Shown here piece after piece: positions 31,564 through 43,969 of a stretch of 64,000 nucleotides of DNA. Source of the stretch: Candidatus Pyrohabitans jungbluthii (lineage in GTDB: Archaea > Hydrothermarchaeota > Hydrothermarchaeia > Hydrothermarchaeales > BMS3B); NCBI GenBank assembly GCA_002010065.2, contig MTMD02000001.1, positions 62,001-126,000 of the forward strand, given 5' to 3'. The stretch's first letter is position 1. Each line of letters begins with the position of its first letter. The notes beneath the pieces are model-generated. The model made no database searches. It saw nothing but the letters and a program-made list of their open reading frames with translations, and was not told the DNA's origin. Made by a program: the position numbers and the translations under genes.

Positions 31564-32226
31564 TCAATAGCCTGCACCGTAGCCAGCGGCTTCGCCATAG
31601 CCAAGCGCTTCTTCTCCGTAACCAGTGGCTTCACCGTAGCCTGCGCCCTCTTCAGCCGCTTGAGCGGGCTGAGCTTCTTCTGCCTTGGGCTTCACTATCA
31701 GCTTGCCTTCCATGCCCTTTTCTCTGTGCCCATTAACCGGGCAGTAGAAGGTGTATTCACCCGCTTTCTCAGCGACAAATTCCACCGTAACCGATGCTCC
31801 TGGCTGTATCCCTGCCTGCATCTGTGCAGTTTCCTCGCCGTAGCCCGCGGCTTCACCGTAACCAGCGCCATATCCAGCGGCCTCGCCATATCCCTCAGCA
31901 GCACCCTCCTCAGGCTTCACTGCATACACACCAAGCTCATCTATGGCAAAGTTGTGCACCTGCGAGCCAACGTTCTTGATGGTTATCCTAACCACGTCTC
32001 CCTCGCTGACGGTTATGCTTGCTGGCTCAAATTTGAACTCCGACGCTTCGATGGTGAATTCCTTTGCTTCAGCGACGCCTTTTGCGGGCGCTGCCGCAGC
32101 AGGAGAGGGTTTTACATCCTCGAGACCTGCTGGTACGCCCGGAGAGAAGCTGTAGCCGACTATGAAGCTAAGCGCCATTGCGGTGACTATTGCAAGCACC
32201 GCTATATCGTCGCGCATTGCGATCAC
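31564..32226 (-). CDS. Membrane-anchored cupredoxin with GYGEA repeats
   Basis: 220 residues. A single N-terminal helix (about 7-25) anchors or exports it, then an Ala/Pro linker and a cupredoxin domain (about 55-180). Type-1 copper ligands are visible: His91 (QVHNF), Cys162 (FYCPVNGH), His167 and Met172. Two blocks of GYGEA/GYGAG repeats are unusual: one inserted in the domain at 111-131 between strands, the other forming the C-terminal tail (195-220). The GTG start at 32226 overlaps the tusA stop (GTGA); ATG 32217 is an alternative. An electron carrier on the outer membrane face is inferred, possibly for sulfur oxidation or reduction. Confidence 0.85.
   Translation of the reverse strand: MIAMRDDIAVLAIVTAMALSFIVGYSFSPGVPAGLEDVKPSPAAAAPAKGVAEAKEFTIEASEFKFEPASITVSEGDVVRITIKNVGSQVHNFAIDELGVYAVKPEEGAAEGYGEAAGYGAGYGEAAGYGEETAQMQAGIQPGASVTVEFVAEKAGEYTFYCPVNGHREKGMEGKLIVKPKAEEAQPAQAAEEGAGYGEATGYGEEALGYGEAAGYGAGY
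31567..31650 (-). repeat. GYGEA-coding repeat, C-terminal block
   Basis: Codes residues 193-220 of the cupredoxin: four GYGE units with small spacers (GYGEATGYGEEALGYGEAAG). A second block of three GYGE units lies at 31831-31905. The DNA repeats (CCGTAGCC/CCATAGCC) suggest slippage growth. Confidence 0.75.
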
Positions 32227-32477
32227 GCCTTCTTTATCCTGTAGACAAATGTACCGCCGTCGGAGCGCTTCTCTATTATCTCATGCCCTTCCTTGTCGCA
32301 GAGCGCTGTAATACTCTCCTCTGAGGAGGGGTTGTCAAAGAGCACTTCAAGTACATCGCCGCTCTTCAGCTTCTGCAGCGTCTTCATTGTGTAGAGTTGG
32401 GGATGTGGACATACATAGCCCTTGACATCCAGCTGGTATACTCCATCTTCAAGCTTCTTAACTTTCACTTTCTGCAC
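32223..32477 (-). CDS. tusA: TusA-family sulfur carrier
   Basis: 84 residues with the TusA/SirA motif: YQLDVKGYVCPHPQLYTMKT, where Cys23 is the expected persulfide carrier in CPxP. The C-terminus is GHEIIEKRSDGGTFVYRIKK. It lies five bases after the YeeE/YedE transporter stop; in bacteria a TusA-like partner (TsuB) works with the TsuA thiosulfate transporter, so the same pairing is likely here. Confidence 0.9.
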   Translation of the reverse strand: MQKVKVKKLEDGVYQLDVKGYVCPHPQLYTMKTLQKLKSGDVLEVLFDNPSSEESITALCDKEGHEIIEKRSDGGTFVYRIKKA

Positions 32478-32481
32478 CTCC

Positions 32482-33873
32482 TTACTCTATCTCTATGTCA
32501 ATATCAAAATCCTCTTCCTTAAGCTGGCGCTCAGTCCACCAGTTGAGGAACTTCACGCTTGCCAATGCGCCGCCGCCCATGCCCAAGAAGAACAGCCAGC
32601 CACCGGGGTCACCGCCAGCAACACGGATGTAGAATGCACCGATGTTGCAGCCCAGTGCTATTCGCGCACCGAGACCCATGAGCGTGCCTCCGAGGATGCC
32701 CCAGACTGCCAGCTCCTTGGTTGGTGCCTTGAACTTGAACTCCTTGTTGAGCAGAGCTATGGCTGCCGCACCAAGGATTATACCTATGGACATGAGCAAC
32801 GCAGGGTTGTGCCACGGCTCGGGTATGCCGTTCATTACGCCAAAGTATATATTGTCCTTCATGTTCCATCCGAACTTCTCCAGCACCCAGGCACCCACCT
32901 GCGCTTCCTGTGTGGTTATATACCAGTAACCGGGGTCAAACACTGTACCTCTCCTAGAAACTTCTTCCACAAAACCAAGCTTCACCAGAGCCTGGCCGAA
33001 GTTTTCTATACCGAACTTGTCCCTGAGGCTCTGCATCGCCATTACGTGGATGCCTGCTATTATGCCAATTAGAATCCCCGCAAGGGTTGTTCTTTTCGAA
33101 GCAGTTATCATCTGCCAGAAGCCGTAAAGCTCGTCTTTGAGACCCAGCTTAACATCCCCGCCGTCCGCAGGCAGTGTTGCTGCTTTCTTCTCTATAATGC
33201 GCCTGACAATGCCCTTCCTAGCAACAAACCAATACGCGAGGCTGAGGAATATCAGCGTGGGTATTATGGTGTTGATGATCGAATTCGCTATAAAGTATTC
33301 GCCAAGGCTAAGGCCCTTACCAAAGAATTTCTCTGCCAAGGTGAACTTAGGCTGCGGGAATATGTAGCCCCTCAGAAGCTTGTCGAACCATCCCTGCGCA
33401 TCTACGAATATCGCTTGAGAGAAGGATATCGCGAGCAGAGCAAGCATAGAGGTGCCATTACCCTCGCCGGTTTTGTACAACGTACCAGAAGCACAGCCAC
33501 CAGCGAGCACCATACCCAGACCAAATATAAGCCCGCCAACAAGTTCATGTATACCCAGTGGGCCAGGATGGAAGGTGCTCAGCTGGTTTGCCGCCAGCAC
33601 TGCCATGATAACGCTGAACACACCCATGGCGACCATTATGCCCACGAACATCCTAGTTACGCCGATGGCGAAGAGGTCGCGCCACGCTGAAGCGAAACAG
33701 AATCTGCCCCACTGCAGAAGTATGCCGTAGGCAAAGCCGAACCATGCGTAGGCAATGATGTACATGTAGATCGGGTTGACTCTATAGTACCACAGGCTTA
33801 TTATCAACATTATGCCAACTACAGAAAAAGCCCAGAATTTCCTCCTTCTATCGGCATCGTCTGCCATATTCAT
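32482..33873 (-). CDS. YeeE/YedE (TsuA-like) sulfur transporter
   Basis: About 463 residues, around 12 membrane helices, with two homologous halves. The conserved cysteine segments of the family are visible: GRFCFASAWRDLF, GGCASGTLYKTGEG and ARIALGCNIGAFY. In TsuA these line a path for thiosulfate. Start chosen at ATG 33873: AAGGAGGAAAGG directly precedes it, whereas the frame could open at 33957. A TATA-like AAAATATAAATATAGG (minus strand) lies about 60 bases upstream. Operon with tusA and the cupredoxin. Confidence 0.9.
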   Translation of the reverse strand: MNMADDADRRRKFWAFSVVGIMLIISLWYYRVNPIYMYIIAYAWFGFAYGILLQWGRFCFASAWRDLFAIGVTRMFVGIMVAMGVFSVIMAVLAANQLSTFHPGPLGIHELVGGLIFGLGMVLAGGCASGTLYKTGEGNGTSMLALLAISFSQAIFVDAQGWFDKLLRGYIFPQPKFTLAEKFFGKGLSLGEYFIANSIINTIIPTLIFLSLAYWFVARKGIVRRIIEKKAATLPADGGDVKLGLKDELYGFWQMITASKRTTLAGILIGIIAGIHVMAMQSLRDKFGIENFGQALVKLGFVEEVSRRGTVFDPGYWYITTQEAQVGAWVLEKFGWNMKDNIYFGVMNGIPEPWHNPALLMSIGIILGAAAIALLNKEFKFKAPTKELAVWGILGGTLMGLGARIALGCNIGAFYIRVAGGDPGGWLFFLGMGGGALASVKFLNWWTERQLKEEDFDIDIEIE

Positions 33874-34085
33874 CCTTTCCTCCTTAAGCTTGTACTGAGC
33901 ATTCTGGAGTATCTTGTTCCCCATACCTATATTTATATTTTTCGAAAGTGGTTTCAAGATAACCGAAATTTAATTCCTCACACTTTCATAAAAATCAAAA
34001 GTTATAATGTTGGATTAATAAATAATAGAAAAATATTTAAACATCTAGATAAAATAGAAAATTTAGCTTATTGGGTGATTTTATT

Positions 34086-34316
34086 ATGGAGCATTTGTGC
34101 GCAGGCAAGAGCATAAATCTGGATTTAACCTTCTGTCCACCAGCGGCAGTGGTTACGTCCAGCTTGAAAAAGGCTGAAAGTGGAGAAGTTTTGCTTGTAA
34201 AGGCATCAAGGTGTCAGGTTGAAATGGTGGAAGCGATTGCAGAGCGGCTTGGTGCAGAGATAATCCAGAAGGAAAAGAAGGGCTCTGCCACAGAACTATG
34301 GATAATTAAGAAGTAG
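34086..34316 (+). CDS. TusA-like protein, CPP variant (copy 1)
   Basis: 76 residues: MEHLCAGKSINLDLTFCPPA, then SSLKKAESGEVLLVKASRCQ and a C-terminal strand ELWIIKK. The TusA fold is clear, but the motif is FCPPAAVV rather than CPxP, and a second cysteine (Cys43) takes the place of the usual acidic DPxx region. Both Cys17 and Cys43 are at identical positions in the copy at 43027. ATG 34086 with GGTGA upstream is preferred over TTG 34071. Divergent from the YeeE operon; a sulfur relay role is inferred. Confidence 0.8.
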   Translation: MEHLCAGKSINLDLTFCPPAAVVTSSLKKAESGEVLLVKASRCQVEMVEAIAERLGAEIIQKEKKGSATELWIIKK

Positions 34317-34513
34317 CTGCGGTTCTGCTATCAAGCGCACAACTTATAAGTATTTTTGTTTTGTCATCTATAAAATATATGTATCTTAAGATAAATTCTT
34401 GTGTTTAGACTTCGTATTTATTTAAATAAAAAAGGCCCCCTTATAAATTTTAACGGCGATTTAATCAGGTTTATAGAAAATCTTATAAGCACGCGTCTGA
34501 ATTATAGTGGTGC

Positions 34514-35731
34514 ATGGGAAAGATAAACCTCTTTTACATAGCGAGGCGCAACCTCAAGCGGAAGTGGTTTAGAAGCCTCGCGCTGATTTTAGCTGTGACA
34601 ATCGCATCAGGTGCTTTATTTGCCAGTGTTTTGATGATGGAAAGCGTTGGGAGAGGTGCTGAGATAAGTACAAGCATGCTCGGCGCAGATGTCATGGTCG
34701 TACCTGTGGGCTATGAAGCCCAGGCGAGAGCATCTCTGCTTGCAGGCGAGCCAAACAAGTTTTACATGTCGCGAAGCGTTGAGGATGAAGTCAAAAAGGT
34801 GCCGGGAGTGGCGCAGACCTCTGTTCAGGTCTTCGCCGAGACCGCCGCATTTCCGTGCTGTGGGTTTACAAAAAGCTTCCTCATAGGCTTCGATCCTGAG
34901 ACAGATTTCACTGTGATGAAGTGGGTGGGTGAGTCGCTTGACCGCCCCTTTGGTAAGGACGACGCAATTCTCGGGTTTTCCCTGGCTGCACTACCCGGAT
35001 TCAAAACCTATGTGCACGGTCACGAGCTGACTGTGTGGGGCAAGCTCAGGCAGAGCGGCATAAAATACTTCGACAACTCTCTTTTTGTGCCTATAGAGAC
35101 CCTCTACAACATAGCTGAGGAGAGCAAGAAGAGGGATGAGGTAGCACCTCTGGAAATAGAGAGAGGGCAGATTTCCGTTGTGCTGGTTAAGGCAGAGGAG
35201 GGCGTATCTCCAGACGTGCTGGAGGTCAGGATAGAGGGGCGCGTTCCCGGGGTGATCGCCATACCCATGCCCCGCGTGCTTCATACCGTAAGAGCACAGA
35301 TGGCAACCCTATTCGGCAGTCTTACCATTCTCGTTGCCGTGCTGTGGGTTGCGAATACGCTCATGGTTGGGGCGATATTCACAACCATAGTGAGTGAGCG
35401 CAGAAAGGAGCTGGGAATACTCCGCGCTATCGGAGCGAACCGCAGACATGTGTTTAGACTGATTCTCGCAGAAGCTGCTTTCCTCACAGCCCTTGGTGGG
35501 CTTCTGGGCATTGCCGCAGGGGGTGCCCTCTTCTATGCCTACAAGGGCATAGTAACCAGCTCCTTCTCAGCACTTAAGATACCATACATCTGGCCCACAG
35601 CCGCGCACGTAGCCGCGATTTCCATTTTCACCCTTATCTCTGCCCTTGCCATGGGAATAATAGGTGCGCTTTATCCGGCTTACACCTCTGCGAAGCTCGA
35701 CCCATACAACGCCATAAGGACGGGTGAGTGA
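34514..35731 (+). CDS. FtsX/MacB-type ABC permease with vicinal Cys pair
   Basis: 405 residues: helix 1 (about 20-42), a large extracytoplasmic MacB-like domain, then three helices (from about 265) ending ALYPAYTSAKLDPYNAIRTG. The outer domain contains Cys115-Cys116 (AAFPCCGF), found at the same place in the second permease of the operon. TSERRKELGILRAIGANRRH is the cytoplasmic coupling loop. Stop and the ATPase start are adjacent (TGAATG). Export or extraction of a sulfur, metal or lipid substrate is possible; none is proven. Confidence 0.87.
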   Translation: MGKINLFYIARRNLKRKWFRSLALILAVTIASGALFASVLMMESVGRGAEISTSMLGADVMVVPVGYEAQARASLLAGEPNKFYMSRSVEDEVKKVPGVAQTSVQVFAETAAFPCCGFTKSFLIGFDPETDFTVMKWVGESLDRPFGKDDAILGFSLAALPGFKTYVHGHELTVWGKLRQSGIKYFDNSLFVPIETLYNIAEESKKRDEVAPLEIERGQISVVLVKAEEGVSPDVLEVRIEGRVPGVIAIPMPRVLHTVRAQMATLFGSLTILVAVLWVANTLMVGAIFTTIVSERRKELGILRAIGANRRHVFRLILAEAAFLTALGGLLGIAAGGALFYAYKGIVTSSFSALKIPYIWPTAAHVAAISIFTLISALAMGIIGALYPAYTSAKLDPYNAIRTGE

Positions 35732-36415
35732 ATGATTATAAAGACAGAGCACCTCTGCAAAACCTACAAGATAGGAGACCAGGTGATAGAGGCGGTTAAG
35801 GGAGTGGATATTGAAATTGAGCGCGGGAAGTTTGTGAGCATTGTGGGGCACTCAGGCAGCGGGAAGACCACTCTGCTCTCGCTGATAGGGGGGCTTACGA
35901 GACCAACCCACGGTAAGGTGTACATAGATGGCATAAATATATGGAATCTGAGCGACGAGAAGCTATCTGAGCTGAGGAATAAGAAGATAGGGTTTATGTT
36001 CCAGTTTTCGAGTCTAATTCCAACACTCAACGCCATAGAGAATGTGATGTTACCAGTAGCCTTTGGAAAAGGTGCAAGCGGAGACGTGGAGAAGCGAGCA
36101 AAGGAGCTTTTGGAGCTTGTGGGGCTTGGGCACAGGATGCGCAACGTACCCTCGCAGCTCAGCGGCGGAGAGCAGCGCCGCGTTGCGATTGCGCGTGCCT
36201 TAATCAACGACCCAGATATAATACTGGCGGACGAGCCCACTGGCGACCTTGACCGAGAAACCGAAGAGGAGGTTATGGAACTCTTTCTGAAGATAAACCG
36301 CGACTTCGGCAAGACCTTTGTGATGGTTACTCACAATCCCGAGCTTGCCAAGCGAACCGACATAACCCTTAGAATGGAAAACGGCAGCATAATTGCGAGA
36401 GAAGAGCATGGGTAA
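35732..36415 (+). CDS. ABC transporter ATPase (LolD/MacB type)
   Basis: 227 residues: Walker A GHSGSGKTTLLSL, Q-loop FMFQFSSLIPTLNAIENV, signature LSGGEQRRVAIARAL, Walker B IILADEPTGDLD, and H-loop VTHNPELA. The LolD-type spacing fits the FtsX-like permeases encoded on each side, with which it probably forms an asymmetric transporter. Confidence 0.95.
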   Translation: MIIKTEHLCKTYKIGDQVIEAVKGVDIEIERGKFVSIVGHSGSGKTTLLSLIGGLTRPTHGKVYIDGINIWNLSDEKLSELRNKKIGFMFQFSSLIPTLNAIENVMLPVAFGKGASGDVEKRAKELLELVGLGHRMRNVPSQLSGGEQRRVAIARALINDPDIILADEPTGDLDRETEEEVMELFLKINRDFGKTFVMVTHNPELAKRTDITLRMENGSIIAREEHG

Positions 36416-37622
36416 GCCGAGCGTAGCCAGGCTGGCCTTTAAAAATTTAAAGCGCAAGCGTTTTAGGGCAATTACACTGATACTTGCCATAGCAATAGCC
36501 ACAGCCTCCCTCTTTTCCAGCATTATTATCCTCAGGAGCGTGGAGCAAGGTTTAGAAAGTGCTGTTGCCCGCCTTGGCGCGGATCTGGTGGTGGTCCCGG
36601 AGGGCTACGAGAAGAAGGCAAGCGAGGTTCTGCTGGGAGGCGAACCCTCGACGTTCTACATGGATTCGAGCATTGTGGGAGAGATTAGGAAAGTGCCTGG
36701 CGTCGCAAAGGCATCGCCGCAGATATTTCTGCAGACTTCCTCTTACCTAATATGCTGCGAGGTCATGGAGACGCTCTTCATCGCCTATGAGCCCGAAACC
36801 GATTTTACGGTAACACCCTGGATAGAGTCCAAGCTTCCTTATATTCCCGAGGAATATGTGGTAACCGGGGGAGGAATACCTGTTTATGAGAACTTCTCCA
36901 TGTACATCTACGGCCACTGGTATGTGGTGTATGCAAGGCTCCATAAAACAGGACTGCGCTACTTCGACTCCACTATTTTTATCCCCATGGACCTCGCGTA
37001 TTCCCTTGCTCAGGAGAGCCAACGCAATCCGCGGGTGGCGAACCTCACACTGAAGCTGGGTAAGATCTCTGCGGTACTGGTGCAGGTTAGCGGTGGCAAC
37101 GCAACTCAGGTTGCCAGGCAAATTGAAGAGCGCGTGCCGGGAACGAGTGTTGTTATGAGCAGCTCCATGGCGTCAAATGCAAAAACGCAGGCGGTCTCAC
37201 TTTTCTCCTCGCTAATAGCTATATCCGCTCTGCTGTGGTTCGCCAACCTCCTGATGATTTCAGCCACTTTCGCAACTATAGCGGGAGAGCGCCGCCGTGA
37301 GTTTGGTCTGCTTCGCGCCATAGGTGCAAAGAGGAGCGATGTGATGAAGCTGATGCTCTATGAGGCAAGTTTCCTCGCCACCATAGGTGCCACCCTGGGG
37401 CTAACCATCGGCACCGCTATATTCTTTGCTTTCAGGGAGGAGGTTACCAAGTCCTTCGAAAAGCTCCTTATCCCATTTTTCTGGCCCAATCTGGATACGC
37501 TACTCGTCACCGCTGTGGTAGCATTCGCCTCCGCGGTGGTCATGGCTTTTCTGGGCACCTTTTATCCCGCGCTTAGCGCGGCAAAGGAAGAGCCATACGC
37601 AGCTATTCGATACGGGGAGTAA
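36408..37622 (+). CDS. FtsX/MacB-type ABC permease with vicinal Cys pair (second)
   Basis: 404 residues, paralogue of the permease at 34514 with the same layout. Cys116-Cys117 (YLICCEVM) matches the Cys pair of the first, and FxAYEPETDFTV corresponds to LIGFDPETDFTV. Start at ATG 36408, overlapping the ATPase by 8 bases; a TTG at 36393 is less likely. Two distinct permeases with one ATPase imply a heterodimeric membrane part. Confidence 0.87.
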   Translation: MGKPSVARLAFKNLKRKRFRAITLILAIAIATASLFSSIIILRSVEQGLESAVARLGADLVVVPEGYEKKASEVLLGGEPSTFYMDSSIVGEIRKVPGVAKASPQIFLQTSSYLICCEVMETLFIAYEPETDFTVTPWIESKLPYIPEEYVVTGGGIPVYENFSMYIYGHWYVVYARLHKTGLRYFDSTIFIPMDLAYSLAQESQRNPRVANLTLKLGKISAVLVQVSGGNATQVARQIEERVPGTSVVMSSSMASNAKTQAVSLFSSLIAISALLWFANLLMISATFATIAGERRREFGLLRAIGAKRSDVMKLMLYEASFLATIGATLGLTIGTAIFFAFREEVTKSFEKLLIPFFWPNLDTLLVTAVVAFASAVVMAFLGTFYPALSAAKEEPYAAIRYGE

Positions 37623-37865
37623 TGATATTAAACCCCGCGTTCACCCGTGGCTACCTATGCTTTATACTCTAAATATACTCTAAATTTATAAATTTTTTAT
37701 ATACCGTCTCACGCACCAGAATTATATATCAAGAAAAAAATACTTATAAATCAAAACTTTTACATTAGTATTACATGCAGATTATAGGTTAATTATCAGT
37801 TGTGCATTTTTATGAATAATCATACTATTTGGGAAAAACTTTATAAGTTATTATGTAGATGTAGC

Positions 37866-37965
37866 AATCGCCCAGGAGCTCCCATCTTCTGGCAGGCTGA
37901 CCCAACGCTGCCGGAGTCTTAGGCTTTGCCCACCCTTCCTGGGCGACCTCCTTCTTCCTTTCAAT
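37866..37965 (+). ncRNA. Candidate structured small RNA
   Basis: In the 391-base gap between the permease and tRNA-Thr no protein frame is convincing. A TATA box (CTTTATAAG, 37840-37848) predicts a start near 37866. Arms TCGCCCAGGA (37868-37877) and TCCTGGGCGA (37937-37946) pair perfectly over 10 bases; inside, TTCTGGCAG (37887-37895) pairs with CTGCCGGAG (37908-37916). The sequence is GC-rich in AT-rich flanks and ends in a pyrimidine run (CTCCTTCTTCCTTTC) like an archaeal terminator. Not recognisable as SRP RNA, RNase P RNA, tRNA or a box C/D RNA. Confidence 0.5.
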
Positions 37966-38013
37966 AACCTTTTATGTAGTCCCCTTTGTGTTTCTTCATC
38001 GACTACTTTTAAC

Positions 38014-38087
38014 GCCTCGGTAGCTCAGCCTGGTAGAGCGTGTGCTTGGTAAGCACAAGGCCGCGGGTTCAAACCCCGCCCGAGGCT
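38014..38087 (+). tRNA. tRNA-Thr (GGT)
   Basis: Full cloverleaf: acceptor GCCTCGG/CCGAGGC, anticodon stem TGTGC/GCACA around TTGGTAA (anticodon GGT), T arm GCGGG-TTCAAAC-CCCGC. Discriminator T; CCA not encoded; no intron. A TATA-like CTTTTATGTAG is about 40 bases upstream. Confidence 0.95.
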
Positions 38088-38202
38088 TTCTTTACCAAAA
38101 TTATAAGCCCCACATTGTTTGGACAATCTTTTCTTTCTTTTGACACACTTTTCCAATGCTCTCACGAAGCTCATAGATACTATATACACCTCTTATCCAC
38201 CC

Positions 38203-38328
38203 ATGGCAAGCCATTACTGCATTTCCTGTGGTGCTCCTCTTGCCCAGGGAAAATATCTCTGCCAAGCCTGTGAGGCCTCGCTTCTGGAAAAACTTTGCGA
38301 GGCGCAACGATATCGAACGAGGCAGTGA
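38203..38328 (+). CDS. Small zinc-ribbon protein
   Basis: 41 residues from ATG 38203: MASHYCISCGAPLAQGKYLC and QACEASLLEKLCEA. CxxC-x10-CxxC is a zinc ribbon. A TATA-like ACTATATACAC (38178-38188) about 20 bases upstream suggests a leaderless message. The frame also opens at 38119 but that part reads poorly as protein. Function unknown. Confidence 0.55.
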   Translation: MASHYCISCGAPLAQGKYLCQACEASLLEKLCEAQRYRTRQ

Positions 38329-38398
38329 AACAACATTCGCCTCAGCAAGTTCATGAAGCCTGAGACTGGGCTAAAAAGCTTAATATCATTACCTACAA

Positions 38399-39457
38399 AT
38401 GGGAGATATGGACATAAAAAGAAGGGCGCTGCTTACCATTGTCGCCATGCTCGGCTCGGCACTGACTTACAAGTATCTGTACCCTCTGCGCTACTTCTTC
38501 CTCGCGCCGCGGGATGTCGAAAGGGTGGTGAGTGTGAGAACAAAGCAAAATGTTTTCACGCATAGCAACAGGTCGCTTGTCTCAGTTGTGGAGGTGGGGG
38601 ACGTCAAGGAGGCGGTTGAGAATGCTGTAAAACTAATCGGCGGCTTCAAGAAGCTCAGGCTTAAAGGGAAGGAGGTGCTTGTAAAGCCAAATGTAAACAG
38701 CGACGACCCCCATCCGGCGACCACAAACCCCGAGGTGGTGCGCGCCACTGTCGAGCTTCTGTATGAAGCGGGTGCTCGCAGAGTTGTTGTGGGAGACATG
38801 AGCGGTATATACTGGCTGCCAACTAAGCAGAGCATGGAGAAAACCGGCATAGCTAAGGCTGCTCTACAAGCTGGTGCAGAGCTTGCCTTCTTCGAGGAGG
38901 AAGAGTGGGTGGCTATGGCGCCACCGCAGGCTAACTACCTGAAGAGCTTTTCAATCCCACGCCGGGTGTACGAGGCTGAAGTATTGATTTCGCTACCTGT
39001 GATTAAGACCCATAAGTACGCGACCTACTCCATGAGTCTGAAAAACTTCGTGGGCATAATCTCCAACGCTGACAGGCGCAAACTACACACCTCTCGCTAC
39101 ATGGAGGAGATGATCGCAGAGATCAACCTCGCAGCAACGCCGGATTTAATAATAATGGACGGAACGCGAAGTATGGTGGCAGGAGGGCCCACAAGCGGGA
39201 GTGTGAAGGAGACTAACGTAATTCTTGCCAGTGGGGATAGGGTGGCAATAGATGTGGTAGGGCTGAGCATAGTTAAGAGCTTCAATGAGTGGGAGCGGGT
39301 GGCTGAGATTGGGATATGGGAGCAGAGGCAGATAAAACGCGCTGTTGAGCTCGAGCTAGGAGCAAATAGCTGTGAGGATATAGAGGTTGTCAGCGCTGGC
39401 GATAGCCCGGCGTTTATGCGGCTTGTGGAGTTTATTAAGAGAGCAATAACTGAGTAG
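38399..39457 (+). CDS. DUF362 family protein
   Basis: 352 residues. An N-terminal signal-like segment after Lys-Arg-Arg (KRRALLTIVAMLGSALTY) suggests export or anchoring. DUF362 features: LKGKEVLVKPNVNSDDPHPA, GARRVVVGDMSG, VLISLPVIKTHKYATYSMSL and NFVGIISNADRRKLH. Often fused or paired with ferredoxin domains elsewhere, but no Fe-S cysteines are present here. Activity unknown. ATG 38408 is an alternative start. Confidence 0.85.
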   Translation: MGDMDIKRRALLTIVAMLGSALTYKYLYPLRYFFLAPRDVERVVSVRTKQNVFTHSNRSLVSVVEVGDVKEAVENAVKLIGGFKKLRLKGKEVLVKPNVNSDDPHPATTNPEVVRATVELLYEAGARRVVVGDMSGIYWLPTKQSMEKTGIAKAALQAGAELAFFEEEEWVAMAPPQANYLKSFSIPRRVYEAEVLISLPVIKTHKYATYSMSLKNFVGIISNADRRKLHTSRYMEEMIAEINLAATPDLIIMDGTRSMVAGGPTSGSVKETNVILASGDRVAIDVVGLSIVKSFNEWERVAEIGIWEQRQIKRAVELELGANSCEDIEVVSAGDSPAFMRLVEFIKRAITE

Positions 39458-39599
39458 TTTATTTTCAGGCTTCTCTGGAAACATCGCAAAGATGGTTGCC
39501 CACTACTTGAGAGCATACGCACCAAAATTTTTATTATAAGCAGACCATATCTTATCCTCAGAAAATTGGATGTATCCCGTCCCAGAAGGGAGCCTGAAA

Positions 39600-40538
39600 A
39601 TGAATAAGATACTCGGCTGCATCTTGATTGTTGCCTCAGGCGTAGCAGCCTATGCCATAAGCAGCATATATCCTGCTCTAAACGCCCTGTTCATCGCCCT
39701 TATTTTCGGCATAGCCTTCGGGAGTATCCTCGAAAGCAAAGAGATGAAAGCCCTGGCAGAGAGGTCTCTCGTGGTAACCCTCCCTGTGGGCATAATATTA
39801 TACGGGGCAAACATAAAGTTCCCTCTTCCATGGGACTTTCCAACACAGGTTATTATCCTCACCTTCCTCTCAGCCACGCTGATGGGCACTGCCGTTTATC
39901 TATTTGCGAAGATACTTAGGGTGAGGGAGAAGCTTGCATTACTTTTAGCATGCGGTACTGCGATATGCGGCGTCTCCGCCATAGCTATACTCTCCCCAAT
40001 AATCAAACCGAAAAAGGAGGAGTTCTCGGCCGCTATTATAATAATAACTGTTGTGGGGCTGACAGGGGCTCTGCTCTACCCCTTCCTGGGCTACATTTTA
40101 GGAATGAGCAGCAAGATTTACGCGTTTATGAGCGGAGCCACACTGCACCAGACTGGTTTAGTCGTGATAGCTTCAAAACCCTTTGGCAGCGGGGTTCTCC
40201 AGGACGGTCTTGCTGTGAAGGGAATACGCATAGCCATGATAGCCTTGGTGGCCCTCTTGGTCTCTTTCGTTTATGCTGAACACAGGTTCTACATCCCGTG
40301 GTATGTGGTTATCTTCCTGCTTGTGGCTTTTCTCACCAGCTTTGTTCTTCCACATTATATTGTTAATATGCTCAAACCCTTCTCCACAATAGCCTTTTCC
40401 ATAACCCTCGCATCAATAGGATTCTCTGTGAATATAAGAGATATTCAGAATATACGTTTGAGCCCACTTATCGCAGCTTATTTGGGCTGGTTCTGCGCAA
40501 TAGGCATATTTATTTTTATTATGGGGTGGGTACTATGA
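39600..40538 (+). CDS. YeiH-family transporter (UPF0324, putative sulfate exporter)
   Basis: About 312 residues with ~10 helices. The family signature ACGTAICGVSAIAILSPIIK is at about residue 115, and HQTGLVVIA follows near 180. Annotated in homologues as putative sulfate exporter without direct proof. ATG 39600 has GGGAG 8 bases upstream; ATG 39570 also possible. The short protein at 42821 resembles the N-terminal extension seen in longer YeiH homologues. ATGA overlap with the sensor gene. Confidence 0.85.
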   Translation: MNKILGCILIVASGVAAYAISSIYPALNALFIALIFGIAFGSILESKEMKALAERSLVVTLPVGIILYGANIKFPLPWDFPTQVIILTFLSATLMGTAVYLFAKILRVREKLALLLACGTAICGVSAIAILSPIIKPKKEEFSAAIIIITVVGLTGALLYPFLGYILGMSSKIYAFMSGATLHQTGLVVIASKPFGSGVLQDGLAVKGIRIAMIALVALLVSFVYAEHRFYIPWYVVIFLLVAFLTSFVLPHYIVNMLKPFSTIAFSITLASIGFSVNIRDIQNIRLSPLIAAYLGWFCAIGIFIFIMGWVL

Positions 40539-42721
40539 GGATGCCGATATTTTTTAAAATAGTCACCATCTCGCTCCTGTTTTCAATGTTATCTCTTGGG
40601 CTCTTCACTGTCAGCTTTGCGACCCCTGGAGGGTTTACCCCAGCTTATTTCCTCTATATGGTGATAATCATCCTGGGAATCTCTCTTTTTGTCGCCGGTA
40701 GCATAACAGAGCCTCTGGAAAGGCTGAAGGTTGGCTTTGAGAGAATTATGAGAGGGGGCAACGCCCATGTGGAGATAAATACTGGAGACGAGTTTGAAGA
40801 CCTCGCCCATGCGTTTAATCACATGGCGGGGGAGTTGACAAGGCAGAGGGAGATGCTGAAGAGGAGTGAGGAGAAGTACAGACTTCTAATAGAGGACATC
40901 AACGACTGGGTATTTGAGCTGGACGAAAACTGGGTTTACACCTATTCCAGCCCCAAGGTCAGGGAAATTCTGGGCTATGAGCCTGAGGAGGTTCTGGGAA
41001 AGACGCCGCTGGATTTCATGCCCGAGGAAGAGAGAGCATTAGCTATTAAAAAAATTAAAGAAATCAGAGAAAAGCAAACTTCGTTTTCGGGGCAGGAAAA
41101 TGTTTTCATGAAAAAGGATGGGAGTTTTGTAGTACTGGAGACCAGCGGCAGGCCATTTTTTGATGAAAATGGAAGTTTAAAGGGTTACAGAGCTGTTAGT
41201 AGAGATATAACTGCAAGAAAGCGGGCTGAGGAGAGATTAGCCTACCTCGCAGGAATTGCTGAGCATTCTATAGATGCGATAATCTCTCTGGACCTTGAGG
41301 GGAGGATAGTCTCCTGGAACAAGGGTGCGGAGATGATGTTTGGGTATAAAGAAGCAGAGGTAATAGGGAATCTAATGAATAGCATTGTGCCAGAAGAGCT
41401 CTGGGATTCCTGTGGGAAGAATTTTAAAAAGGCGATTATGGAGGGCTACGCCAGGGATATAGAGACCATAAGGCTCGCGAAGGATGGGAGAAGGGTGCTG
41501 GTGGACCAGACGCTTACCACAATTTACAACCCCAAGGGTGAGCTTATAGGCTTTGTTGCAATAATGCGAGATATAACCAAGCGAAAGGAGGCTGAAGAAG
41601 AGCTTAAAAGGGCGTACAGGCAACTGGAGGAGAGAACCAAAGAGTTGCTGAAATCCCAGAAGGAGCTGGAATACTTTGCAAACATCGTTGAAAATTCCAA
41701 CGATGCTATCTACTCTGTAAACCTAGATGGAATTATTACCAGCTGGAATAAAACCGCTGAAAAGATGTTCGGCTGGAGAAAAAATGAAGCTATAGGTATG
41801 CAGGCAGGCAAACTACTGCCAGATGAAATTAAGAATGAAACACCCTTCCTTATTCAGAAGGTAAAGCAGGGAGTGAAGTTCATATCCTACGAGACCAAAA
41901 GGGTGAGCAAGGACGGCGCTATAATAGATGTGGATGTGACCATCTCACCAATCTTGGACGAAAGTGGTAATCCAGCGGGATTTTCTGTGATAGCGAGGGA
42001 CATATCTTCCAAGGTTAAAGCCGAAGAAGGGATGCTCAAGAGGATTTTGAAGTACGATGTTAGCAGGGGCAGGATTTACCTGATAGAGGAGCCCTTTCCA
42101 GACCTTGCCAAAGATGTACTCCTTGACCTAGTAAAATGTGGTTATGCAGGCACAGTGATAACAAGGAGGCTCGCAGAGGAGATAGGTGTACGTGGTGTGG
42201 TGTATTTCTGGCTCTCTGAGAAGAGAGGAAAAGATACTCTCTCACCTGAGATTTCTGAGGTGGAGTCTACGATAATGAACCTGCCAAACTGGAACAATGC
42301 CGTGCTTTTAGAGCTGGACTACCTCATCCTTAAAAATGGATTTGAGAAGGTGTTTGAATTCGTCCAGAGAATGAAAGAGGCATTTTATTTCCTGAAAAAG
42401 GGTGTGCTGCTTCTTTCATTAGACCCTGAGATTCTGACACAGAGGCAGGCAAAGCTTCTCAGGAAGGAATGTGGCATTATAAAGCCAAAGCAGCATGAAC
42501 TCCCGCCTGAGGTTTTTGAGATTTTAAGGCATGTTTACATGGAGAACAGGGTAGGGAAGAAACCGTCTATTAAGGAGATTATGCAGAAGTTCAACATTGC
42601 GAGAAATACAGCCAAAAAACGCATACGGTACCTCGAAGGTAAGGAATTGGTGAATGTGGTCAGGGTGGGTAGGCTGAAGTTACTTGAGGTCACAGAGAAG
42701 GGTAAAGAGCTATTCTATTAG
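40535..42721 (+). CDS. Membrane PAS-DUF835-winged-helix one-component sensor
   Basis: About 728 residues. Two helices (about 7-29 and 36-57) with almost no outer loop, HAMP (58-108), PAS1 (about 115-230), PAS2 (236-355), coiled linker, PAS3 (376-495), a DUF835 domain (about 500-635: MLKRILKYDVSRGRIYLIEE, then LLELDYLILKNGFEKVFEFV) and a C-terminal winged helix (KPSIKEIMQKFNIARNTAKK). There is no histidine kinase. PAS loops with SWNKGAEMMFGYKEAE and SWNKTAEKMFGWRKNE are typical. ATG 40535 overlaps the YeiH stop (ATGA). A membrane-bound transcription factor for this sulfur locus is inferred. Confidence 0.88.
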   Translation: MRMPIFFKIVTISLLFSMLSLGLFTVSFATPGGFTPAYFLYMVIIILGISLFVAGSITEPLERLKVGFERIMRGGNAHVEINTGDEFEDLAHAFNHMAGELTRQREMLKRSEEKYRLLIEDINDWVFELDENWVYTYSSPKVREILGYEPEEVLGKTPLDFMPEEERALAIKKIKEIREKQTSFSGQENVFMKKDGSFVVLETSGRPFFDENGSLKGYRAVSRDITARKRAEERLAYLAGIAEHSIDAIISLDLEGRIVSWNKGAEMMFGYKEAEVIGNLMNSIVPEELWDSCGKNFKKAIMEGYARDIETIRLAKDGRRVLVDQTLTTIYNPKGELIGFVAIMRDITKRKEAEEELKRAYRQLEERTKELLKSQKELEYFANIVENSNDAIYSVNLDGIITSWNKTAEKMFGWRKNEAIGMQAGKLLPDEIKNETPFLIQKVKQGVKFISYETKRVSKDGAIIDVDVTISPILDESGNPAGFSVIARDISSKVKAEEGMLKRILKYDVSRGRIYLIEEPFPDLAKDVLLDLVKCGYAGTVITRRLAEEIGVRGVVYFWLSEKRGKDTLSPEISEVESTIMNLPNWNNAVLLELDYLILKNGFEKVFEFVQRMKEAFYFLKKGVLLLSLDPEILTQRQAKLLRKECGIIKPKQHELPPEVFEILRHVYMENRVGKKPSIKEIMQKFNIARNTAKKRIRYLEGKELVNVVRVGRLKLLEVTEKGKELFY

Positions 42722-42820
42722 GCGCAGGTATATTGAAAATATTGACACTTTTTTTGACGATATTGATAAGCAAACTGTCACCCCTAGTTTTTCTAGCGGC
42801 GCAGAAAAGGTGGGTAGGAA

Positions 42821-42988
42821 GTGAGCCAGGGCATTAAAGTTGGAGTGGGAAAGGAGTGGAGCAAGCTGTGGAACACCGAAGAGTGGTGGGCCGTGTGGGA
42901 GGCATTGCTTAAACTCTCTGGCTATGGAAACAGAAAAGATGCGCAGATAGAGAAGGTCTTGAGATACAGCAAAAGCAGCAGGAGATAA
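42821..42988 (+). CDS. Small Trp-rich protein resembling YeiH N-terminus
   Basis: 55 residues, GTG start with AAAAGGTGGGTAGG upstream. MSQGIKVGVGKEWSKLWNTE then EWWAVWEALLKLSGYGNRKD. The WxxLWxxExWWAVW string recalls the cytoplasmic start of longer YeiH-family sulfate exporters (recollection, not checked), yet no membrane helices follow. Lies 38 bases before the CPP-type TusA-like gene, so probably co-transcribed with it. Too short for routine gene finding. Confidence 0.6.
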   Translation: MSQGIKVGVGKEWSKLWNTEEWWAVWEALLKLSGYGNRKDAQIEKVLRYSKSSRR

Positions 42989-43026
42989 TCACTAAAACTC
43001 CATAAACAAAGCTCATGGGTATTCCG

Positions 43027-43257
43027 ATGAAACAGATACATGCCAATAAAATCATAGTGCTTAACAAAACCTTCTGTCCACCTGCAGCGGTGGTGCTCTC
43101 CAGCCTAAAGAAGGCAAAGGCAGGAGAGGTGCTCCACATCAAGGCTTCAGCGTGCCATGCCCAGCTTGTAGCTGACTTAGCTGAGCGCGTAGGGGCCGAG
43201 GTGATATTTAAGGATAAAAATGGCACCTGCACCAGCTTCTGGATTTTGAAAAAGTAG
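43027..43257 (+). CDS. TusA-like protein, CPP variant (copy 2)
   Basis: 76 residues: MKQIHANKIIVLNKTFCPPA, SSLKKAKAGEVLHIKASACH and STRAND-like SFWILKK at the end. Cys17 and Cys43 fall at exactly the same positions as in the copy at 34086, which supports ATG 43027 over ATG 43015. About half the residues are shared with that copy. Convergent with ccdA (one base between stops). Confidence 0.8.
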   Translation: MKQIHANKIIVLNKTFCPPAAVVLSSLKKAKAGEVLHIKASACHAQLVADLAERVGAEVIFKDKNGTCTSFWILKK

Positions 43258-43258
43258 G

Positions 43259-43969
43259 TTAGCGGAGGTACTCAGCCAGCCTGCTCTCAAGCTCAGGCAT
43301 ATACGGTGCCAGCATCGCCTGAAGCACGCGGTCTAGGTTAAAGAAGAAAGCTACTCCTGCGATTATCAGCACCCAGCCTGCGATTTTTTTTGCATAGACG
43401 TTGTACCTGCTGACGCTCGCCACCCTGCTGGTGGCAAACTTCCCGAGATAAGCCACAGCAAGCATTGGTATGCCCAGACCTATTGAATATGCAAAGAGGG
43501 AAACCCCACCCGTAACCACATCGCTGGTTACAAGCATCAGCACCGGGCCAAGCACCGGTCCGACGCAGGGTATCCACACTATACCGAGGGATAGGCCAAG
43601 AAGGAGTGCCCCTAAATAACCTTCTCTCTGCTTTGATGTGAAGCCAGGGATACTGAGCTTGTTGAGGAGCATAGTGGAGTACATCACAAAGTAGCTGTTC
43701 AGCCTCTCGCTAACAAGCATAGCACCCATGAGTATTATGAGGATGATTCCAAATATGCGCAATCCCCCAGAGATGGGTCCCATAGCTTCTCTGAAAATAG
43801 AGGTGAGCACGCCCATGACGGTGAATGTTATGCTCATCCCGGCGACGATTATAAGGGGACGAAGCTTAGAGCCAGCGCCACCAGCCATCACCACCGGCAC
43901 AAGGGGGAAAACGCAGGGTGAGGTGATACTCACTATGCCAGCGAGAAAGGACATGAGCACCAACTTCAT
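43259..43969 (-). CDS. ccdA: CcdA/DsbD-type thiol transporter
   Basis: 236 residues, six helices. The two reactive cysteines are Cys19 (ITSPCVFPLVPV) and Cys135 (GIVWIPCVGPVLGPVL), each before a conserved proline-rich turn. CcdA carries electrons from cytoplasmic thioredoxin across the membrane to outside thiols. Beside Cys-Cys permeases and sulfur carriers, it may keep those outer cysteines reduced (inference). No cytochrome c gene is near. Confidence 0.93.
   Translation of the reverse strand: MKLVLMSFLAGIVSITSPCVFPLVPVVMAGGAGSKLRPLIIVAGMSITFTVMGVLTSIFREAMGPISGGLRIFGIILIILMGAMLVSERLNSYFVMYSTMLLNKLSIPGFTSKQREGYLGALLLGLSLGIVWIPCVGPVLGPVLMLVTSDVVTGGVSLFAYSIGLGIPMLAVAYLGKFATSRVASVSRYNVYAKKIAGWVLIIAGVAFFFNLDRVLQAMLAPYMPELESRLAEYLR

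Follow-up and report, generated by a model that had tools for sequence, protein, structure and literature searches.

What does a run of sulfur-carrier, transporter and redox genes do for a hot-vent archaeon, and do these genes act together? The question is raised by positions 31564-43969 of a 64,000-nucleotide stretch of DNA from Candidatus Pyrohabitans jungbluthii, the whole of which is called the window below. The host genome (G000; 1.99 Mb in 15 contigs) belongs to the Hydrothermarchaeota, a group predicted from its published genomes to oxidize CO and hydrogen with sulfate or other oxidized sulfur as acceptor (PMC6775978, PMC6759336). A preliminary description of the locus, drawn from its letters, had proposed a single pathway in which thiosulfate or a related species enters through a YeeE/YedE-family transporter (YedE), passes along TusA-type carriers that include two small CPP proteins, and leaves through an ATP-binding cassette (ABC) machine whose paired cysteines are reduced by CcdA. 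The analysis reported here shows that the locus consists of separately conserved modules lying side by side, not of one sulfur pathway, and that its ABC permeases belong to a previously unrecognized clade found in both archaea and bacteria, several members of which adjoin copper chaperones. The explanation that we favor, and to which we give about an even chance, is a sulfane-sulfur import operon (module A) juxtaposed with an ABC machine (module B) that serves copper or redox proteins outside the cell.

Modules that separate in relatives

Profile searches found every gene of the preliminary description intact, including the YedE transporter, the three TusA-type genes, the Cys-Cys permeases, YeiH and CcdA. 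Comparison with relatives places four starts slightly off those of the longest open reading frames (ORFs), namely YedE at 33867, CPP1 at 34086, permease B at 36408 and CPP2 at 43027. The remark that nearly every gene handles sulfur, thiols or redox was too generous: about half handle sulfur or thiols, and the DUF362 protein, the ABC subunits and the PAS/DUF835/helix-turn-helix (HTH) regulator carry no sulfur annotation.

The modules come apart when relatives are compared. YedE and TusA, with an anchored protein, occur in G005, G006, G007 and G016 with no permeases or CPP genes nearby. Another set, comprising a regulator, a V4R protein, TusA, a split YedE and rhodanese, is known from a second locus of the host (C8, described below) and in G005, G007 and G015 has no Cys-Cys permease next to it. 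In G012, a genome of another family, permease A (65% identical), the ATPase and permease B are set between a beta-propeller gene and PCuAC, and the operon is adjoined by thioredoxin, multiheme cytochrome, Rieske and cytochrome b genes; YedE and TusA are absent from the 19.5 kb examined around it. A deletion in the congener G002 left only the first quarter of permease A, now fused to the end of permease B; CPP1 was lost by a separate deletion, with YedE, TusA and the cupredoxin remaining in place and CPP2 remaining elsewhere. An assembly fault could produce such deletions, but the two breakpoints are independent. G002, G003 and G004 share the last block of the locus, DUF362-YeiH-PAS-CPP2 with the convergent CcdA gene and pyrB, on contigs that do not carry the permeases.

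Since the modules are separable, the outcome that the preliminary description had itself named as telling against its pathway, genes scattered in relatives, is largely what was found. A single route ending in sulfur export also fits poorly with the genes that recur beside the permease clade, those for extracytoplasmic redox proteins, copper chaperones and an enzyme that contains copper. We consider the route from YedE over CPP and TusA carriers to export of a persulfide or thiol through the Cys-Cys machine improbable. It can call on the co-location of the modules in the genus, on the clade permeases that have YedE nearby (three contexts of about eight), on the loss of CPP1 along with the permeases in G002 and on the two-cysteine, YeeD-like nature of the CPP proteins, but besides the separation of the modules it has to contend with the many clade members that have no sulfur genes nearby and the majority that have no CPP protein, with a CcdA gene that sits in another block, and with the need for a reason to import and then export the same atom.

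A clade of Cys-Cys permeases

Permease A (34514-35731, plus strand; PF02687 and PF12704), the LolD-like ABC ATPase (35732-36415, plus strand; PF00005) and permease B (36408-37622, plus strand; PF02687; about 41% identical to permease A) are encoded by neighboring genes that abut or overlap. Both permeases have four transmembrane (TM)-like segments and, as had been noticed at the outset, a Cys-Cys pair (residues 115-116 of permease A), which lies in the long loop that joins TM1 to TM2. The structural model of permease A matches MacB, LolCE and related type VII ABC permeases, and the Cys pair is therefore predicted to face outward; the Cys-Cys loop itself is modeled with low confidence. The two permeases share the FtsX domain, the 1 + 3 arrangement of TM segments and the MacB-like outer domain that characterize the MacB/FtsX type. 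They score far below the curated LolCE model (36.3 and 38.9 bits vs 362), and the ATPase reaches 264 bits against the LolD model TIGR02211, under its cut-off of 307.75. The machine thus resembles MacB and LolCDE in its one N-terminal and three C-terminal TM segments, its large outer domain, its LolD-like ATPase and its best fold matches, but differs in its predicted outward Cys-Cys pair and its archaeal host, which has no outer membrane, and nothing indicates a lipoprotein or drug substrate.

In a tree of 55 permeases, built without the Thioalkalivibrio sequences and with bacterial sampling drawn from plasmid-collection records, every Cys-Cys permease falls on one side of one branch with a Shimodaira-Hasegawa-like approximate likelihood-ratio test (SH-aLRT) support of 98. 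The Cys-Cys permeases are thus one supported clade that spans archaea and bacteria, and conservation of the pair throughout the clade argues that it is not a chance feature. Four members inside the clade are without it: one from Methylocella, a PCuAC-linked archaeal copy, and the second subunit at two loci. Relatives recovered by tblastn come from Methylocella, Treponema, Fusobacterium and Acetoanaerobium, with Vibrio more distant; FtrD-linked, generic and Vibrio permeases all lie outside the clade. The Fet/FtrD family was considered as a home for these permeases and rejected, as it forms a separate branch without Cys-Cys, yet the Fusobacterium locus is physically associated with it.

A third Cys-Cys permease of the host genome is found at locus C8 (L010, 4265-14139), together with NosL, a second MacB-like ABC set, a LysR-type regulator, a V4R-like protein, TusA, a PmpA/PmpB-like split YedE and a tandem rhodanese. 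The corresponding loci of congeners add a TlpA-like thioredoxin, missing in the host.

Neighbors of the clade and a possible role in copper or redox upkeep

What do the permeases serve? Copper chaperones recur among their neighbors. PCuAC is present as one gene each in 5 of 46 archaeal genomes. Four of these genes, from four genera, have a clade permease close by, at distances of 48 bp, 70 bp, 142 bp and 1.4 kb; by neighbor statistics computed from search coordinates, the chance of this adjacency under random placement is about 4e-8, an approximate value given short contigs and related genomes. The fifth PCuAC gene is on a 3.4 kb contig. Each of the five genomes of the window genus has NosL next to its C8-type permease. 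The second ABC set that goes with NosL at C8 recurs in G015, where PCuAC separates it from the permease. A literature search found no work on PCuAC together with an ABC permease. In G017 PCuAC has the gene of a Tat-type cysteine-rich protein next to it, and in G021 such a gene is close by (L141, 402-1223; L056, 4721-5524).

A copper enzyme appears as well. The Methylocella member of the clade lies directly after thiocyanate dehydrogenase, and in Thioalkalivibrio two permease/ATPase pairs directly follow the thiocyanate dehydrogenase gene and are co-induced on thiocyanate; a copper role has been suggested for these pairs and their function left open (PMC5328954, PMC5744179). The Methylocella permease, which sits inside the clade, has the four-TM layout and has the copper enzyme next door, suggests that the Thioalkalivibrio permeases would belong there too, but the Methylocella copy has lost the Cys pair. 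At the C8-type locus an ABC machine beside a NosL copper chaperone recalls NosDFY-NosL and poses the same question of copper or sulfur; the C8-type permease is MacB-like, however, not NosY-like, and no NosZ was found near these loci. Beta-propeller proteins beside the G012, G020 and G001 members were considered as NosZ and set aside, one giving a weak L-NosZ match (48.9 vs 700 bits) and the others none.

Other neighbors point in other directions. In three of about eight hand-counted contexts (the window, C8 and G020; rough p 0.002) a YedE gene is found no more than 10 kb from clade members. Members from Treponema, Fusobacterium, Acetoanaerobium and G044 adjoin DUF4418, an arrangement that recurs in three bacterial phyla and one archaeon (L113, 6759-8829; L114, 6551-8877; L115, 6454-8871; L053, 328-2176), and DUF4418, the Cys-Cys permease and the ATPase likely form a functional trio. 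DUF4418 was rejected as a general partner because just 2 of 150 archaeal genomes have it, neither of them from the window genus. Two further loci (L057, 4529-13431; L108, 4229-9852) hold clusters of DsrE/DsrH, a multiheme cytochrome, a beta-propeller lipoprotein, TusA and split YedE, the first of them also with a Cys-Cys permease pair.

Taken with homology and published work on relatives, these neighborhoods make it more likely that module B, made up of CPP1, permease A, the ATPase and permease B, serves extracytoplasmic copper or redox sites than that it exports sulfur. Its task would most likely be to load copper (or similar) sites in extra-membrane proteins or to maintain their redox state. 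The vicinal cysteines on the outer domains of this MacB/LolCDE-type machine may act as a transient Cu(I) or redox site, with ATP driving movement of those domains, and CPP1 may be a cytoplasmic two-cysteine carrier of the TusA/YeeD kind that feeds or senses sulfur for the machine in this genus only. The species handled, the direction of transport and the part played by the cysteines are all inferred.

Several observations weigh against a copper role. The permeases of the window adjoin neither PCuAC nor NosL, and the local copper protein is a cupredoxin encoded in a divergent operon, which G002 keeps after loss of its permeases. No obvious copper gene lies beside the Treponema, Fusobacterium and Acetoanaerobium members, the Methylocella member is without the Cys pair, and the recurrence of YedE within 10 kb means that a tie to sulfur remains. 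For every clade member, moreover, the copper role is deduced from genes.

That tie also admits an intermediate scheme, in which the Cys-Cys machine would assemble copper-sulfur sites extracellularly, drawing copper from proteins of the NosL, PCuAC or cupredoxin type and sulfane sulfur via YedE and CPP1, a counterpart of the question posed by NosDFY. We hold it to be quite improbable, and keep it because the sulfur theme is real in the genus and may reach module B through CPP1.

The redox genes beside some members bring up a different possibility, that the machine supplies reducing power or small thiols outward, as proposed for FetBCD of the Campylobacter iron system FetMP-FetABCDEF, and so serves any redox or metal protein nearby. 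FetBCD consists of two permeases and an ATPase that are needed together with thioredoxins (PMC10783030), a composition that resembles that of the Cys-Cys machine with its two FtsX-type permeases, ATPase and redox partners. Thioredoxin, Rieske, cytochrome b, FMN-binding and FtrD-type genes do adjoin some members, and the Fusobacterium locus includes an FtrD operon along with an FMN-binding lipoprotein. The permeases linked to FtrD and Fet, however, form a separate branch outside the clade and have no Cys pair, thioredoxin genes are not a constant companion, and the tight adjacency of PCuAC would go unexplained, so that we regard this possibility as unlikely, if worth holding in mind. Handling of heme for multiheme cytochromes, after the manner of HrtBA or a cytochrome maturation system, seems to us highly improbable: multiheme c, Rieske and cytochrome b genes stand beside members in G012, G020 or G021 and HrtBA is among the fold matches, but a match at this level (about 15% identity) is common to MacB-type permeases in general, the window, C8-type and bacterial members have no cytochrome or Rieske genes beside them, and copper adjacency is again unaccounted for.

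A probable sulfur-import operon

The transporter of module A (32482-33867, minus strand) passes the YeeE/YedE family model PF04143 (165 bits vs a cut-off of 27) and, in an alignment with Escherichia coli TsuA, conserves the three relay cysteines of that protein. To call it TsuA-like was right as to family and cysteines but goes beyond the curated models, since it falls below both those for TsuA (127 vs 400 bits and 88.8 vs 645) and that for YedE/FdhT (137 vs 350 bits), and it forms a subfamily of its own. Only 4 bp separate it from a canonical TusA-family carrier (32223-32477, minus strand) that passes PF01206 (77.9 vs 28.6 bits) and whose CPHP motif fits CPxP; the YedE start region is at 33879-33867. 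Overlapping the TusA gene by 4 bp is that of a membrane-anchored cupredoxin (31564-32226, minus strand; PF13473/PF00127), in which an alignment of relatives shows the His, Cys, His and Met ligands and Gly-Tyr-Gly repeats within the domain.

The TusA partners of YedE in other genera are 66-93% identical to that of the window. The tightness of the YedE-TusA operon, its retention in those genera and the three relay cysteines make it plausible that thiosulfate or sulfane sulfur is taken up and passed to a TusA-type acceptor, so the import step of the original proposal holds up, and module A is probably an operon for such import. By analogy with YeeE-YeeD, sulfur would enter through the three-cysteine channel of YedE and be taken over by TusA inside. 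The likeness to TsuA-TsuB (YeeE-YeeD) extends to the YeeE fold, the relay cysteines, the TusA-family partner and, in the CPP proteins of the window, the spacing of the two YeeD cysteines. On the other hand, the window transporter is longer (about 460 residues) and under the TsuA cut-offs, its operon partner is a CPHP TusA, and the CPP motif is CPPA, not CPxP. The cupredoxin was rejected as a family-wide member of the operon: in G005 and G007 the same position holds a short anchored protein without the domain, which therefore appears specific to the window genus. Besides the CPP proteins, the host genome has eleven TusA-domain matches, vs 1-3 in most other archaea sampled.

CPP1 and CPP2

Of the three TusA-type carriers first described, one is a true TusA and CPP1 is modeled with a TusA fold, but CPP1 and CPP2 fall below or outside the TusA models. 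CPP1 (34086-34316, plus strand) and its paralogue CPP2 (43027-43257, plus strand; conserved in G002-G004) are 58% identical; one scores 21.9 bits against the 28.6 of PF01206 and the other gives no match, CPPA taking the place of CPxP. A second conserved cysteine follows 26 residues on, in KAS[RKA]C. That these ORFs are real genes follows from purifying selection in close pairs (dN 0.02-0.14, dS 0.5-1.1). The AlphaFold2 model of CPP1 (predicted local distance difference test score 87.6) has both cysteines at or next to helix N-termini, and its best structural matches are the YeeE-YeeD complex (8j4c/8k1r) and TusA (1dcj), an outcome that the presence of TusA sequences in the input alignment may have favored.

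In E. coli YeeD, cysteines 13 and 39 are both important for growth on thiosulfate (PMC11073785). The CPP cysteines have the same spacing, with the second one residue off in the alignment, and hhalign found no significant match between the CPP profile and YeeD, so the link is one of fold and cysteine spacing. Among 297 archaeal genomes CPP proteins are confined to the five of the window genus; candidate homologues elsewhere, all weak matches, are ordinary TusA. The co-occurrence check first suggested for CPP proteins and Cys-Cys permeases, and with it the idea that CPP proteins carry sulfur for the ABC machine, therefore has a divided outcome: the two were lost together in G002, but the permeases range well beyond the CPP-bearing genus.

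Between the end of CPP1 and permease A lie 197 bp that hold TATA-like CTTATAAG motifs. The assembly of G001 contains two versions of the window locus (L041, L042), probably a strain mixture, in which CPP1 is only about 75% identical and permease A about 98%.

The YeiH, regulator and CcdA block

A tRNA-Thr gene (38014-38087, plus strand) marks the boundary between modules. In relatives it has unrelated sequence and an integrase-like ORF beside it (L044, 1-1979; L099, 1-990), which gives it the look of an insertion site. Beyond it come a DUF362 protein with an N-terminal anchor (38399-39457, plus strand; PF04015, 185 bits), a membrane protein probably of the YeiH family, by model name a putative sulfate exporter (39570-40538, plus strand; PF03601, 187.8 bits vs a cut-off of 24.5; TIGR00698, 229.9 bits, just short of 232.6), and a sensor/regulator of the HAMP-PAS x3-DUF835-HTH type (40526-42721, plus strand) that overlaps YeiH by 13 bp. 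CPP2 follows, and convergent with it is a CcdA-type DsbD_TM protein (43259-43969, minus strand; PF02683, 51.9 bits).

This block, CPP2 and CcdA included, is independent of modules A and B. Reduction of the permease cysteines by CcdA, as had been proposed, finds no footing here: CcdA cannot be tied to those cysteines because it belongs to a separate block, no thioredoxin partner lies beside it, and the host genome has two further DsbD_TM matches.

Implications

A weak pathway is here replaced by a testable one. The two-cysteine CPP proteins widen the known range of TusA/YeeD-type carriers, and the permease clade touches a published open question, that of the ABC genes associated with thiocyanate dehydrogenase in Thioalkalivibrio. 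If the reading of module B as a machine for copper or redox proteins is true, it would offer a way into the question of how extracellular copper sites are assembled, also by cells that inhabit sulfide-rich water.

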